64,000 bases of DNA from Planctomycetota bacterium. GTDB lineage: Bacteria; Planctomycetota; UBA1135; GCA-002686595. Below are positions 631-48,300 of this stretch, piece after piece. Position 1 is the first letter of the stretch. Each line of letters opens with the position of its first letter. The translations under genes and the position numbers were made by a program. The stretch spans positions 1 through 64,000 of the forward strand of contig SIAI01000018.1 in the NCBI GenBank assembly GCA_009691855.1. Direction: 5' to 3'. Below the pieces are notes generated by a model. That model was given only the letters and a program-made list of their open reading frames with translations, did not search any database and was not told the DNA's origin.

Positions 631-1956
631 TCAGCGCTTCTTGCAGTACTCGACCCAGCGCTGCTCGAGCTCGGCCAGGGTCACGCCGTAGACCTCTTCC
701 AGCGCGCTCTGGAGCACCTCCGGCTCGTCGCGCTGCAGGCGTCCGATGCGCAGCAGGAAGGTGGGGAAGCGCGACTGGGTCTCCTTGCCCTCGCGCAGGA
801 ACTCGATCAGCAGCGCGGCCTGCTTGTAGAGGTCGCCGGCCTGGTCGCCGCCGGCGGCGTCCTTGTCGCTCGACATCAGCAGGCTCGGGACAGCGATGAA
901 GCGCGCCAGCGGCATGTGCTTCTGCTTCTTCACCTGCCCGGCCACGGCCGAGCGGTCGCCCGGGCGCGAGGACATGTATTCGGCCACGCCCTCCTGGAAC
1001 CACGAGCCGCCGCCACCGAGGCCCAGGCGGTTGGCGAAGATCTGGTGCGTGGCCTCGTGGATGTGCACCGGGTCATTGGGCGCCTCGTACCAGGTGGCGT
1101 AGTAGTCGCGCCAGGCGTGGCCCTTCGAGCGCTTGGCTGCTTCGAGCTCGATCCCGGCGATGCGGCTGTAGAACTCGAAGTATTGATCCGCGGTCTGGAA
1201 CAGGAACACCGGCAAGAGGCGGCGGCCCCCGACCTCGTCGAAGGGATAGGTCTTCTGGATCGTGACGTAGCACTCCTCCATCTTCTTCGCGAACAGCTTG
1301 CCGCCGTCGGAGTTGCTGAGGATGAGGTAGTGCGCCGTGCGTAGCGCGCCCTTGAACTTCTCGTGCGTCGCGCTCGGCGCGTCGTGTTGCCAGCGCGCGA
1401 GCGCTTCGGCATCGCTCCAACGGTGCTCGCGCACCGCGCCGGAGTAGGCGATGCCGTGCTGCAGGAACTCGAGCAGCGCGGGTTCGCCGGCCGCGTCCGG
1501 TGCGGGCGTGGCCTCGAGCGTGATCCAGTAGCCTTGCGTGGGCAGCAGGCCGCCCAGGAGGTAGCGCAGCCCGAGCACCGTGGCCCCGTCGCGCGAGCGC
1601 AGCTCGCTGCGCTCGAAGCTGGCGTAGGCCGCGAAGCCGAAGGGCCCGGCGAGCGCGCGGCGCGCCACCGGATCGTTGCGCGCCTGGTTCGGATCGCTCC
1701 AGAACGACGGGCCCATGTCGAGCACGTCGGCGGGTTCCTCCAGCGCGAACTTCTCCCCGGGCAAGGTGCGCAGCGCGATCTCGACCTGGCTGGTGCCCAG
1801 CATCCCGCGCCAGCGATTCGTGCCCGCGCCGCGCAGGCCCTCGAGCGGCGGCAGGGTGAGCGTCAGCTGCAGCTCGGCCAAGACTACCGTGCGCGCGTCG
1901 GGCGCAGCCGGAGCCTGGAGCACGAGCGGAGCGAGCAGCCAGAGCGGAGAGGCCAT
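631..1956 (-). CDS. Putative secreted zinc metallopeptidase (DUF1570-like, gluzincin)
   Basis: The 441-residue protein starts at the ATG at 1956 and opens with a short hydrophobic signal-like segment (MASPLWLLAPLVLQ), so export is likely. Residues about 300-304 read HEATH, a zinc-binding HExxH motif. The downstream WFQEGVAEY supplies the glutamate expected as third zinc ligand in gluzincins. The first half, about 250 residues, resembles no domain I can name. The family is common in Planctomycetota as secreted peptidases of unknown substrate. The start was chosen because upstream sequence in frame has no plausible start or signal peptide. It ends next to the family A palindrome and probably forms its own transcription unit, 92 nt behind the sugar transferase. 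Confidence 0.65.
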   Translation of the reverse strand: MASPLWLLAPLVLQAPAAPDARTVVLAELQLTLTLPPLEGLRGAGTNRWRGMLGTSQVEIALRTLPGEKFALEEPADVLDMGPSFWSDPNQARNDPVARRALAGPFGFAAYASFERSELRSRDGATVLGLRYLLGGLLPTQGYWITLEATPAPDAAGEPALLEFLQHGIAYSGAVREHRWSDAEALARWQHDAPSATHEKFKGALRTAHYLILSNSDGGKLFAKKMEECYVTIQKTYPFDEVGGRRLLPVFLFQTADQYFEFYSRIAGIELEAAKRSKGHAWRDYYATWYEAPNDPVHIHEATHQIFANRLGLGGGGSWFQEGVAEYMSSRPGDRSAVAGQVKKQKHMPLARFIAVPSLLMSSDKDAAGGDQAGDLYKQAALLIEFLREGKETQSRFPTFLLRIGRLQRDEPEVLQSALEEVYGVTLAELEQRWVEYCKKR

Positions 1957-42292: not shown

Positions 42293-42456
42293 TGTTCCTG
42301 CCCCGCAGTAGCACCAACAAGGCGCCGTGATGGATCGGCGCTGGCCAGGCGCGCCGACGACGCGTATGCGCTGCAATACTAGGGAGGAGGCGCAACGCCG
42401 CCAGCGGCGCTTCAGTGCGGCGGATTGTTGGCGCTACTTCGGGGCAGGGACACTAG
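42289..42456. repeat. Second MITE-like palindromic element, sharing a CTAG border with the first
   Basis: A 168-bp element with 29-bp terminal inverted repeats (42289-42317 and 42428-42456, three mismatches), again bounded by CTAG. Its ends differ in sequence from those of its neighbour (TGTTCCTGCCCC versus TCCCAGAACAAG), so it is a different family. The right CTAG supplies the TAG stop codon of the peroxiredoxin gene on the minus strand, so insertion left that protein intact. Confidence 0.7.
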
Positions 42457-43067
42457 CCGTGCATGGCCTTGTGCACCTTGCCGACCATCTCGGGACCGGG
42501 CTTGAGCGTCTTGTCGCCCTTGTCCTTCCACTCGGCGGGGCACACCTCGCCGGGGACGTCCTTGAGGTACACGTTGGCCTTCAGGCGGCGCAGCAGGTCG
42601 TCCATGTTGCGGCCGATGTTGAGCACGTTGATCTCGGAGCTCATCAGCTTGCCCTCGGGGCTGATGATGAAGCTGCCGCGCAACGCCAGGCCGGCGTCGT
42701 TCATGTACACGTTGAACAGCTTGGCGACCTTGCCGGTCGTGTCGGCGCCCATCGAGTACTTCACCCCGGCGAGTTCCTTCTCCTCGCGCTGCCAGGCGAG
42801 GTGCGTGAACTGCGTGTCGCAGCTCACCGTGAGCAGCTTGGCGCCGAGTTTTTCGAACTGCGCCTGACGCTCGGCCAGGGCTGCGAACTCGGTCGCGCAC
42901 ACGAAGGTGAAGTCGGCCGGGTAGAACACCAGCACCGACCACTTTCCGGCCTGCTTGTTGTCCCTGAGGCTGTACTTGCCGAACCCGCCGGTGGTGGGTT
43001 CGAAGGTGGTCATCTCGAACTCGGGCACGTCGGCGCCGACCTGGAGGGGCGTGACTTCTGCGCTCAT
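42453..43067 (-). CDS. 2-Cys peroxiredoxin (AhpC/Prx1 type)
   Basis: The 204-residue enzyme reduces peroxides. The peroxidatic Cys 57 lies in YPADFTFVCATE and the resolving Cys 176 in GEVCPAEW, the arrangement of typical 2-Cys peroxiredoxins. GSFIISPEGKLMSSEINVLNIGR is characteristic of the AhpC group. It is somewhat longer than E. coli AhpC (187) owing to an N-terminal extension. Its reductant is not encoded next to it. The TAG stop coincides with the CTAG border of a MITE-like element. TACACT at 43113-43108 may be its -10, 40 nt upstream. Confidence 0.92.
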   Translation of the reverse strand: MSAEVTPLQVGADVPEFEMTTFEPTTGGFGKYSLRDNKQAGKWSVLVFYPADFTFVCATEFAALAERQAQFEKLGAKLLTVSCDTQFTHLAWQREEKELAGVKYSMGADTTGKVAKLFNVYMNDAGLALRGSFIISPEGKLMSSEINVLNIGRNMDDLLRRLKANVYLKDVPGEVCPAEWKDKGDKTLKPGPEMVGKVHKAMHG

Positions 43068-43981: not shown

Positions 43982-44509
43982 TCAGCGCAGCTTCGCCAGC
44001 AGCGCCTCGAACTCGACGCGCTCGCCCGCGCCCTCGATGCGGCCGAGCTCATTGCCGTCGCGGTCGAAGAGCAGCGTCACCGGCGGCCCGCCCGGCAGAC
44101 GCAGGCGCGCGTTCAGCGCCTCGAGGTCACCGCTGAAGGCGACCACCGGCAGCTCGTAGCCGTGGCGCTCGACGAAGGCGCCGAGTTGCTCGGCCGTCTT
44201 CACCTGCGCGGGATCGGGCAGGTCGAGCGAGACCGCCACCACGCGCACGCCGCGCGCCGCGAGTTCCTTGTGGAGCTGCACGAGCTCCGGCATCTCCGCC
44301 AGGCACGGCCCTCACCAGGTGGCCCAGAAGTTCACCAGCACGCCCTTCTCGCTGCCGCGCGCGCGCAGCTCGCCGAGCAGCGCGCTCTCGTCCAGCACGG
44401 GCGGTGTCTTCCACTGCCAGGCCGGCGCCGGCGCGCAGGCACCGAGCGGAGCGAGCACCAACGCAGGCAGCGCGAGGACGCAGGCCAGCAGCGCCTTGCG
44501 CAGGCTCAC
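43982..44509 (-). CDS. TlpA/thioredoxin-like lipoprotein with in-frame TGA at the first active-site Cys (candidate selenoprotein)
   Basis: Two adjacent open stretches in one frame join across a single TGA at 44314-44312. The result is a 175-residue thioredoxin-fold protein: N-terminal signal with lipobox-like LAPLGAC, then VLVNFWATW-[TGA]-GPCLAEMPELVQLH, and a normal C-terminal half with the cis-Pro region GGPPVTLLFDRDG. In TlpA-type proteins the site is WCxxC; here codon 66 is TGA where TGC/TGT is expected and Cys 69 is intact. Either the codon is read as selenocysteine (UxxC redox site), or it is a nonsense mutation or sequencing error. A 17-nt hairpin 23 nt downstream fits the general bacterial SECIS layout. 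The GTG start overlaps the upstream redoxin-like stop (GTGA). No sel genes are in the window. Confidence 0.65.
44272..44288 (-). promoter_or_regulatory. Candidate bacterial SECIS hairpin
   Basis: On the transcript, GGAGCU (24-29 nt after the UGA) pairs with AGCUCC (35-40) around a five-base loop CGUGC. It thus has a 6-bp stem and an apical loop with G in the first two positions and a GU, 29 nt from the UGA. These features fall in the range described for bacterial SECIS elements. GAGCTC-like palindromes are common in this GC-rich coding DNA, so chance is possible. Confidence 0.4.
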
Positions 44510-45177
44510 TTCGGCCCGCCGTCCTTCGGCGCGCGCTTCAGCGGACGGCCGGCGGGGATGGTCCAGTTGTACTCGACCTTCTTGCCGGCCAGCACGAGCT
44601 CGAGCGCCGGCACGAGCTTGGGCGTCACCGCCTGGCTCGCCTTGCGCTTCTCGCCCTTCGGATCGTCGTCGATGCCGCCGTGGTAGCGCACGTAGCGGTT
44701 CGCATCCAGCAGGAACACCTGCGCGTTGGTCTTGGCCTGGAAGTCGTCGGCGAGGCGGTTCTCGCGGTCGATCAGGAGCGGCAGCGTCACCTGTTCCTTG
44801 CTCAGCACCTCGCGCATCTTGAGCAGTGGATCGCTGGCGCCGACCAGCTCGTCCTGGTTCGAGTCGACCAGGTAGATGGCCAGCCTGCCCTCGTACTTGT
44901 CCTGCAGTTCGGCCAGCGCGGGCGCGTAGAAGCGCGAGACCGGGTCGCGATAGGACCAGAAGACGACCAGCAGCGCCTTGCCCTCGTTCTCGGCGAAGAG
45001 CTTGTGCTCCTTGCCGTCGAGGTCGGGCAGCACGAGCTCCTCGGTGCGCCCGTCGAGGTGATAGGGCTTGCTCGGCAGCGGCTGCGCGGCCTTCGGCGGC
45101 GCGGCGGGCGGCTTGGGCTCCTGGGGCACGGGATTCGGCGCGGCGAGGAGCAGCAGATACAACAGGGAATCGAGCAC
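44506..45177 (-). CDS. Redoxin-like protein lacking the catalytic cysteine
   Basis: The 223-residue protein has a short hydrophobic N-terminus (LDSLLYLLLLAAPNPVPQ, probable signal) and a thioredoxin/peroxiredoxin-like domain. It contains LVLPDLDGKEHKLFA and LLVVFWSYRDPVSRFYAPAL. In the planctomycetal redoxins this resembles, the segment reads FxSxxCPxSRxYAP, so Asp replaces the usual Cys and no other Cys is present in the domain. A redox role would need a partner. The GTG start at 45177 was chosen over a longer ATG frame that runs into the ileS promoter. Its stop overlaps the start of the TGA-containing TlpA-like gene. TATCCT at 45207-45202 may be its -10. Confidence 0.65.
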   Translation of the reverse strand: MLDSLLYLLLLAAPNPVPQEPKPPAAPPKAAQPLPSKPYHLDGRTEELVLPDLDGKEHKLFAENEGKALLVVFWSYRDPVSRFYAPALAELQDKYEGRLAIYLVDSNQDELVGASDPLLKMREVLSKEQVTLPLLIDRENRLADDFQAKTNAQVFLLDANRYVRYHGGIDDDPKGEKRKASQAVTPKLVPALELVLAGKKVEYNWTIPAGRPLKRAPKDGGPK

Positions 45178-45285
45178 GGTTCGGAACCTCCGGTGCCGCA
45201 GAGGATACGCGGTGGACGCGCGTAGCGCCCGTTCGGGCAAGCGCAGCGGAGGCTCGGCGGCGTGGAGCTGCATGCCCTGCTCACC

Positions 45286-45291
45286 TAGACT
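45286..45291 (+). promoter_or_regulatory. Candidate -10 box (CCTAGACT) for ileS
   Basis: TAGACT ends 10 nt before the ileS ATG, implying a very short or absent leader and hence no room for a T-box. Confidence 0.4.
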
Positions 45292-45301
45292 CGGCAATCC
45301 C

Positions 45302-48300
45302 ATGGCGCGCCCCTACCCCGAAGTCCCCTCCCAGCCCCGCCTCGCCGAGCTCGAGGAGCGCGTGCTCGCCTACTGGAAGGAGCAGGACCTCTTCCGCGCC
45401 TCGGTCGCGAACCGTCCGGCCGGAAAGAACGGCGCCAACGAGTTCGTGTTCTACGACGGGCCGCCGTTTGCCAACGGACTGCCGCACTACGGGCACCTGC
45501 TCACCAGCTACGTCAAGGACATCGTGCCGCGCTACCAGACCATGCGTGGCAAGCGCGTCGAGCGACGCTTCGGCTGGGACTGCCACGGCCTGCCGGCGGA
45601 GATGGAGTCGGAGAAGGAGCTCGGCATCTCCGGGCGCGCCAGGATCACCGAGTACGGCATCGAGCGCTTCAACGCGCATTGCCGCTCGTCGGTGATGAAG
45701 TACACCAAGGAGTGGGAGGGCACGGTCACGCGCGCGGCGCGCTGGGTGGACTTCGCCCACGACTACAAGACCATGGACCTCGCCTACATGGAGAGCGTCA
45801 TGTGGGCCTTCGCCGAGCTCTTCAAGAAGGGCCTCGTCTACGAGAGCTACCGCGTCATGCCCTACTCGTGGGCGGCCGAGACGCCGGTCTCGAACTTCGA
45901 GACGCGCATGGACAACTCGTACCGCGAGCGCCAGGACCCGGCGTTGACGGTGCGCTTCGCGCTGGAGCGCGTGAGCGGCGACACGGCGCCGACGGAGCTG
46001 TGGGCCTGGACGACGACGCCCTGGACCCTGCCTTCGAACCTGGCGCTCGCGGTCGGACCCGAGCTCGAGTACGCGGTGTTCGAGAAGGACGAGAAACGCG
46101 TCGTGCTCGGCGCCAGCGTGCTGGCCAAGTACGAGAAGGAGCTCGCCGGCGCCGTGCGCGTCACGACGCTGAAGGGCCGCGAGCTCGTCGGCCGGCGCTA
46201 CACGCCGCTCTTCCCGTACTTCGCGGGCACGAAGAACGCCTTTCGCGTCCTGGCCGGCGACTTCGTGGACACGAGCGAGGGCACGGGCGTCGTGCACATG
46301 GCGCCCGGCTTCGGCGAGGACGACCAGCGCGTGTGCGCCGAGAACCAGATCGCCATCGTCTGCCCGGTGGACGAGAAGGGCCGCTTCACCGCCGAGGTGC
46401 CCGAGTGGCAGGGCGTGAACGTGTTCGAGGCGAACAAGCCGATCATCGCCGCCTTGAAGCAGCGCAACGTGCTCGTGCGCCACGACACGCTCGTGCACAA
46501 CTACCCGCACTGCTGGCGCACGGACCAGCCGCTGATCTACCGCGCGCTGTCGTCGTGGTACGTGAAGGTCACCGCGATCCGCGAGCAGATGGTGGCGCTC
46601 AACCAGAAGATCCACTGGGTCCCCGAGCACGTGCGCGACGGCCAGTTCGGCAAGTGGCTCGAGGGCGCGCGCGACTGGTCGATCTCGCGCAACCGCTTCT
46701 GGGGCTCGCCGATCCCGGTGTGGCGCAGCCCGTCGGGAAAACTCAAGGTCTTCGGCAGCATCGCCGAGCTCGAGCAGGCCAGTGGCCAGAAGATCACCGA
46801 CCTGCACCGCCCGTTCGTCGACCAGCTCGTCATCCGCGAGGGCGGCGAGGAGTACCGGCGCGTCGAGGAGGTCCTGGACTGCTGGTTCGAGTCGGGCTCG
46901 ATGCCCTTCGCGCAGGTGCACTACCCGTTCGAGAACAAGGAGTGGTTCGAGACCCACGCGCCGGCCGACTTCATCGTCGAGTACGTGGCCCAGACGCGCG
47001 GCTGGTTCTACACGCTGATGGTGCTCTCGACCGCGCTGTTCGGCCGCGAGCCCTTCAAGAACTGCATCTGCCACGGCGTGGTGTTGGACGAGAACGGACT
47101 GAAGCTCTCGAAGCGCCTGAAGAACTTCCGCAGCCCGGAGGAGGTCTTCGCCACGCAGGGCTCGGACGCGCTGCGCTGGTACCTGTGCAGCTCGCCGATC
47201 CTGCGCGGCGGCGACCTCGTCATCGACAAGGACGGCAAGGCGATCGGCGAGATCGTGCGCCTGGTCATCCACCCGATCTGGAACGCGTACAGCTTCTTCG
47301 CGCTGTACGCGAACGCGGACAAGATCCAGGCGAGCGTGCGCAGCGACGCGAGCGGCGTGCTCGACCGCTACATCCTCGCCAAGCTGCGCACGACGGTCGA
47401 GCGCGTCACCGCGGCGATGGACGCCTACGACCTCGCCGGGGCGTGCGCGGAGATCCGCGCGTTCCTCGACGCGCTCAACAACTGGTACATCCGCCGCAGC
47501 CGAGCGCGCTTCTGGCGCGGCGAGCTCGACCAGGACAAGAAGGACGCGTACGACACGCTGTACACCGTGCTGACGACGCTGTGCAGGCTCGCGGCGCCGT
47601 TCCTGCCGTTCGTGACGGAGGAGGTGTATCGCGGGCTGACGGGGGAGAAGAGCGTGCACCTGGCGGACTGGCCGGAGGCGGCGAAGCTGCCAGCGGACGC
47701 GGAGCTCGTGCTCGACATGGATCGAGTCCGCGAGGTGTGCTCGGTGGCGCTGGGGCTGCGCGAGGAGAAGCGCCTGCGCGTGCGCTTGCCGCTGGGCGAG
47801 CTCGTGGTCGCCGCGGAATGGGCGCGCAGCCTGGAACCCTACGCCGAGCTGATCGCCAGCGAGGTGAACATCAAGAACGTGATGTTCTCTCCGCGTCCCG
47901 ATGCGTTCGCGACGCTGCGCTACTCCGTCAACTCGAAGAAGGCGGGCCCGCGTCTCGGCGCGAAGCTCAAGGCCGTGCTCGGCTCGCTCAAGGGGCCCGC
48001 GCCCGAAGTCACGTTGAGCGGCGCCGAGCTCGTCGTGCAGACGGCCGAGGGTGCGATCCGCTTGCTCGAGGGCGAGTGGGAGTCCGCGCTGCAACAACGA
48101 CCGGAGGTCGAGGCGCGCGGTCAGGCGCTCGCACCGCTCGCCGACCGCAAGGCCTTGGTCGCCCTGAACACCCTCGTCACCCCTGAGCTCGAGCGCGAGG
48201 GCCTCGCCCGCGACCTCGTGCGCGTGATCCAGCAAGCGCGGAAGGACGCCAAGCTCAACGTCTCCGACCGTATCCGCCTGCGCGTCTCCGGCGATGCGGC

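Follow-up and report, generated by a model that had tools for sequence, protein, structure and literature searches.

A putative selenocysteine-containing TlpA/ResA-like lipoprotein and its redoxin-like operon partner in a Planctomycetota genome

The locus

The window analysed here is a stretch of 64,000 nt from a Planctomycetota bacterium (positions 1 to 64,000 of contig SIAI01000018.1, assembly GCA_009691855.1). Its minus strand includes a TlpA/ResA-like gene interrupted by a single UGA and, upstream of it, a gene for a redoxin-like protein (Table 1); the stop codon of the latter overlaps the GTG start codon of the former (GTGA, 44509-44506).

Table 1. Features of the TlpA-like locus in the window, and redoxin-like genes with an in-frame TGA in related genomes
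Feature	Position	Strand	Remarks
Redoxin-like operon partner, upstream	44506..45303	-	PF00578 E=5e-10
TlpA/ResA-like lipoprotein gene with single in-frame UGA	43982..44509	-	175 aa with UGA read as Sec; GTG start 44509-44507, stop 43984-43982
Predicted signal peptide, with lipobox-like L-G-A-C (Cys25) at its end	44435..44509	-	sequence inspection
UGA codon, read as putative Sec66, first residue of U-G-P-C active site	44312..44314	-	orthologue column
Candidate bSECIS hairpin, GGAGCU-CGUGC-AGCUCC	44272..44288	-	-7.7 kcal/mol; loop 29 nt after UGA
TGA redoxin, locus L048	2067-2759	-	
Other TGA redoxin loci: L131, L132, L136-L139, L031, L035, L038, L039, L041-L046, L049, L050, L024, L143 (upstream gene)			

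Translation of 44509-43982 (-) gives 175 codons with one internal stop, a TGA at codon 66 lying between FWATW and GPC. When this is read through, the protein matches PF00578 (AhpC-TSA, E=1.6e-13) and PF08534 (Redoxin, E=4e-12), with both halves belonging to one thioredoxin-fold domain. This bears out the preliminary description of the locus, which had both halves of such a protein intact in a single frame and the TGA at 44314-44312, in W-[TGA]-G-P-C, as their sole interruption. The thioredoxin fold itself is predicted with confidence: AlphaFold, run on the alignment, gave a mean pLDDT of 89.9, with the U66 position beginning the first long helix, and the nearest solved structures are those of ResA, TlpA, CcmG, and related thioredoxins. 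A CxxC-type motif at the start of this helix and an invariant later Pro are also present. By domain match and fold the protein belongs with the TlpA/ResA-like proteins (PF00578, cd02966-type); it scores below the NCBIfam equivalog/subfamily cut-offs for TlpA (NF047696; 61 vs 230 bits), ResA (NF002854; 58 vs 170 bits), and DsbE (TIGR00385; 39.8 vs 123 bits). A hydrophobic N-terminus ending near a Cys, as in the window protein, was found by inspection in most of the orthologues.

One way to read such a frame is as two products, a 65-residue N-terminal peptide stopping at the UGA and a C-terminal piece reinitiated from the ATG at 44293. An open reading frame from this ATG does exist, and Sec insertion ordinarily has to compete with termination, but the ATG is a codon internal to the active-site helix (Met of E-M-P), and a complete thioredoxin fold would be found in neither of the two pieces. 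Of the alternatives considered here this is the least probable, and the chance that it is correct is very slight.

Selenocysteine machinery

The preliminary description took the codon to be decoded as Sec, a reading that would have been hard to sustain in a genome without sel genes. All four (selA, selB, selC, and selD) were found in the genome from which the window comes, a draft assembly of 4.28 Mb in 91 contigs, 91% complete. SelA scores 487.6 bits, and SelB (1.1e-93) is above the curated NCBIfam cut-off; it is full length, reaching the C-terminal ...SRKYLIPLLEHLDASGVTLRQGANRVLRKR, and includes the C-terminal part responsible for SECIS binding in known SelB proteins. The tRNA-Sec scores 73.9 bits and has the anticodon UCA (ARAGORN). 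SelD (325 bits) is likewise encoded with an in-frame TGA, in DYSDCAGUAAK (G000:C38:110394-111335, locus L010), followed by a bSECIS-type hairpin of 9 bp (-13 kcal/mol) with the loop GUG located 33 nt past the UGA; by its sequence, it is itself a UGA-containing selenoprotein. Among 121 related genomes, selA is above the cut-off in 115, so that Sec use is an established trait of this lineage.

Exchange of UGA and Cys at codon 66

In the search of these 121 genomes for orthologues, 47 loci were read. The codon aligned with codon 66 is TGA in 21 of the 47 and TGC or TGT in the remaining 26; TAA and TAG do not occur. Cys or TGA, the two states that the preliminary description suggested looking for, are thus the only ones present, and the in-frame UGA aligns with the redox Cys of its homologues as a Cys/Sec pair. 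TGA recurs at this very codon, without TAA or TAG, beyond what chance would give. TGA alleles are spread over three families of the order, and a tree of the 47 proteins, whose bootstrap support is not fully settled, requires about four Sec/Cys changes.

The orthologue from the same genus (genome G001, locus L022) has the same TGA at 55% protein identity; its frame is otherwise intact, so that the further disruptions which might have been expected in a sister genome of a decaying gene are not seen. A tRNA-Sec is also present in this genome, as is a SelD that contains a TGA; neither selA nor selB was found in its assembly, which is 77% complete. Across the orthologues, conservation at the protein level persists past the UGA, with most change at the third codon position.

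The residues between the two redox positions differ between the two groups as well. The motif is CxPC in every one of the 26 Cys proteins, but in 12 of the 21 Sec proteins the Pro is replaced by Ser, Thr, or Ala (UxSC and similar; Fisher P=6e-6 for the codon 66-69 motif in the 47 orthologues, uncorrected for relatedness). A scan of named genomes with a search pattern that required the Cys-type motif returned only Cys-type matches, from other lineages.

These comparisons bear directly on the possibility that the TGA is a former Cys codon altered by a nonsense mutation, or by a sequencing or assembly error, and that the gene is a pseudogene or an artefact. One base change is all that this would take, and the assembly is a draft in many contigs. 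Against this, 20 further genomes, that of the same genus among them, have TGA at this codon, with no other disruption and no TAA or TAG, and conservation is kept on both sides of it. Short of an identical error in some 20 assemblies, this explanation is refuted, and it is given very little weight here.

A putative SECIS hairpin downstream of the UGA

In the published bSECIS model, the loop is 3-9 nt with a G within its first two positions, the stem is 4-16 bp, the distance from UGA to loop is 16-37 nt, and the minimum free energy is at or below -7.5 kcal/mol (PMC13188914). The window hairpin, with a loop of 5 nt (CGUGC, with G at position 2 and U at position 3), a stem of 6 bp, and the distance and energy given in Table 1, falls within all of these limits. 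The preliminary description had reported this hairpin, with the same stem length, loop, and coordinates, as lying 29 nt after the UGA; the hairpin is as described, and the distance is correct for the start of the loop, but the stem begins at 23 nt.

Taken alone, the window hairpin is not exceptional and is weak evidence; it is the comparison across orthologues that carries weight. An equally stable bSECIS-type hairpin arises in 17% of synonymous recodings with the codon usage of the window (P=0.17), and the free 60-nt strand after the UGA favours another fold (z -0.79); a 34-nt piece beginning 9 nt past the UGA does fold with the hairpin. The thermodynamics of this single hairpin were accordingly rejected as proof of Sec.

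The helix shows 89.5% pairing across 19 distinct UGA orthologues, and its covariation is 0.251 vs 0.119 for shuffled alignments (0/500 as high); two of the stem pairs show C-G/G-C exchange. The same helix is 58.7% paired in 25 Cys orthologues, with no excess of covariation. A covarying stem in the UGA orthologues only exceeds chance. Similarly, a contiguous hairpin of bSECIS type with an energy of -5 kcal/mol or lower is found in 19 of 21 UGA genes vs 6 of 26 Cys genes; two closely related UGA orthologues (G069 and G056) have no contiguous hairpin of this type. Relatedness may account for part of this contrast, as no more than about four Sec/Cys changes are needed on the tree.

The coupling of the hairpin to the UGA alleles also bears on the possibility that an unusual tRNA or an altered genetic code has the UGA read as Cys, Trp, or Gly instead of Sec. 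The residue that aligns with it in relatives is indeed Cys, and selC-like tRNAs charged with Cys occur in some bacteria. This coupling, the complete canonical set of SelA, SelB, SelD, and tRNA-Sec in the genome, and the use of UGA as an ordinary stop as well (for example, at 44508-44506, ending the upstream partner) all speak against it, and decoding as another residue seems slightly less probable still than mutation or error.

One Cys orthologue (genome G075, locus L038, match at 1501-1878 (-)) retains a SECIS-like hairpin, CGAUCU-GGUCG-AGGUCG, perhaps left over from an earlier Sec codon, or perhaps by chance.

The redoxin-like operon partner

The two genes form a conserved operon: in 41 of the 47 loci the TlpA gene is immediately preceded by a homologue of the redoxin-like gene. 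Family members have the motifs FWSxxCP and, near the C-terminus, PYG-C-[SG]-IKR. In 21 of the 47 loci (Table 1) the codon for this C-terminal Cys is TGA, giving PYG-U-[SRG]-IK[KR] (KPYG-U-x-IKK). The TGA is usually 4-7 codons ahead of a TAG, TAA, or TGA stop, and the residues past it are conserved. In the genus of the window both conserved Cys/Sec positions of the redoxin have been lost (FWSYRDP for FWSxxCP; PAGRPLKR for PYG[U/C]xIKR), so that only the TlpA partner there retains a catalytic Sec/Cys pair.

A hairpin follows the redoxin TGA too, overlapping or lying past the stop codon in most loci. Its loop is CGUGC, as in the window TlpA hairpin, in 11 of 15 distinct sequences aligned. The MAFFT alignment of this region was gappy, and a loop-anchored alignment was used instead; in this, the helix is 85.9% paired, both sides change in 8 of 9 pairs, and covariation is 0.782 vs 0.221 for shuffled alignments (0/500).

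The states of the two partners (TlpA/redoxin) in the 47 loci are Sec/Sec in 13, Sec/Cys in 2, Cys/Sec in 8, Cys/Cys in 15, and Sec/neither in 3; in the other 6 the redoxin was scored as not found, meaning that there was no redoxin match or no terminal motif. Sec forms of the redoxin occur in other families of the phylum as well (e.g., L153, L156-L158, and L174). It is likely, on these sequence comparisons, that this is a redox operon of two genes whose products have each gained or lost Sec independently, and that the redoxin belongs to an undescribed selenoprotein family (PYG-U-[SRG]-I-K-[KR]) whose SECIS in most cases reaches past the stop codon into intergenic space.

The redoxins of L156, L157, and L158, from another family of the phylum, have EGU[SG]LKRVKR, with a strong GC-rich hairpin past the UGA that here ends ahead of the stop codon.

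Proposed function

The gene is not broken; at its in-frame UGA, Sec is very probably inserted into the active site of an exported thioredoxin-fold protein. The grounds for this are that the codon and the RNA hairpin recur in many relatives carrying the Sec machinery, and that the operon partner is an apparent selenoprotein in many relatives. What is established at the level of sequence is the presence of the Sec machinery, the exchange of UGA and Cys, covariation in the hairpin, and conservation of the gene pair. The sel genes, the exchange, the fit to the bSECIS model, and the covariation lend support to the decoding as Sec first proposed in the preliminary description. That the product is a TlpA/ResA-type lipoprotein thiol-disulfide oxidoreductase, predicted to be exported and to have Sec as its first active-site residue (U66-G-P-C69), is regarded here as close to certain.

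For its synthesis, SelD would produce selenophosphate, and SelA would turn Ser-tRNA-Sec into Sec-tRNA-Sec. At the UGA, the downstream hairpin would bind SelB with GTP and Sec-tRNA-Sec, and the ribosome would insert Sec rather than terminate. The TlpA-like chain would then be exported and lipid-anchored via Cys25. The predicted role as an anchored oxidoreductase, with Sec66 as nucleophile and Cys69 as resolving residue, follows from the fold and the motif: the Sec66 selenolate might attack a substrate disulfide, with resolution by Cys69, if the redox direction is as supposed. The co-encoded redoxin-like protein is a likely partner or substrate.

Relation to known selenoproteins

A table of 119 prokaryotic selenoprotein families and subfamilies (Table 1 of PMC13188914) includes cd02966 UxxC, PF00578 UxxC, and PF08534 UxxC entries. 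UxxC TlpA-like selenoproteins are therefore already in the literature, and the window gene adds to a known type. Among these, the thiol-disulfide isomerase-like selenoprotein (cd02966, UxxC; PMC13188914) is, like the window protein, a predicted selenoprotein with a TlpA-like domain and UxxC; the likeness of this family (representative MGB1650493.1) to the window lipoprotein is drawn only from its description in the table. The Prx-like thiol:disulfide oxidoreductase selenoprotein (PF00578, UxxC/UxxU; PMC13188914) matches in Pfam domain and motif type, again by a table entry, which gives no operon context or lipoprotein form. The UGC-containing TlpA family (NF041054, WAxxUGC_long) shares a ResA-like domain with Sec near the same place, but has UGC rather than UxxC and about twice the length, and the window protein scores 31.9 bits vs its 300-bit cut-off. 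ResA (Bacillus), TlpA (Bradyrhizobium), CcmG, and other CxxC proteins share the fold and the placement of the active site; all of these have Cys where the window protein has putative Sec.

The redoxin is the more novel part. It fits no NCBIfam model (best score 47.5 bits vs a 170-bit cut-off), and its near-C-terminal GUxIK motif is absent from the table of 119 families, a 2026 inventory (PMC13188914); nothing describing this motif as a selenoprotein was found in the open-licence literature, searched as main texts. It may thus represent an undescribed selenoprotein family with near-C-terminal Sec, to which the TlpA locus led, and whose SECIS would lie largely beyond the stop codon. Standard gene calling cuts the TlpA-like gene at its UGA and would miss an active-site selenoprotein. 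Across related genomes, the operon comes as a ready-made set of Sec/Sec, Sec/Cys, Cys/Sec, and Cys/Cys pairs, in which it can be asked why extracytoplasmic redox proteins keep or lose Sec.

A peroxiredoxin (AhpC-type) gene also lies nearby, at 42453-43067 (-) of the window, and one is likewise close to the TlpA gene in two other loci (L029 and L034).
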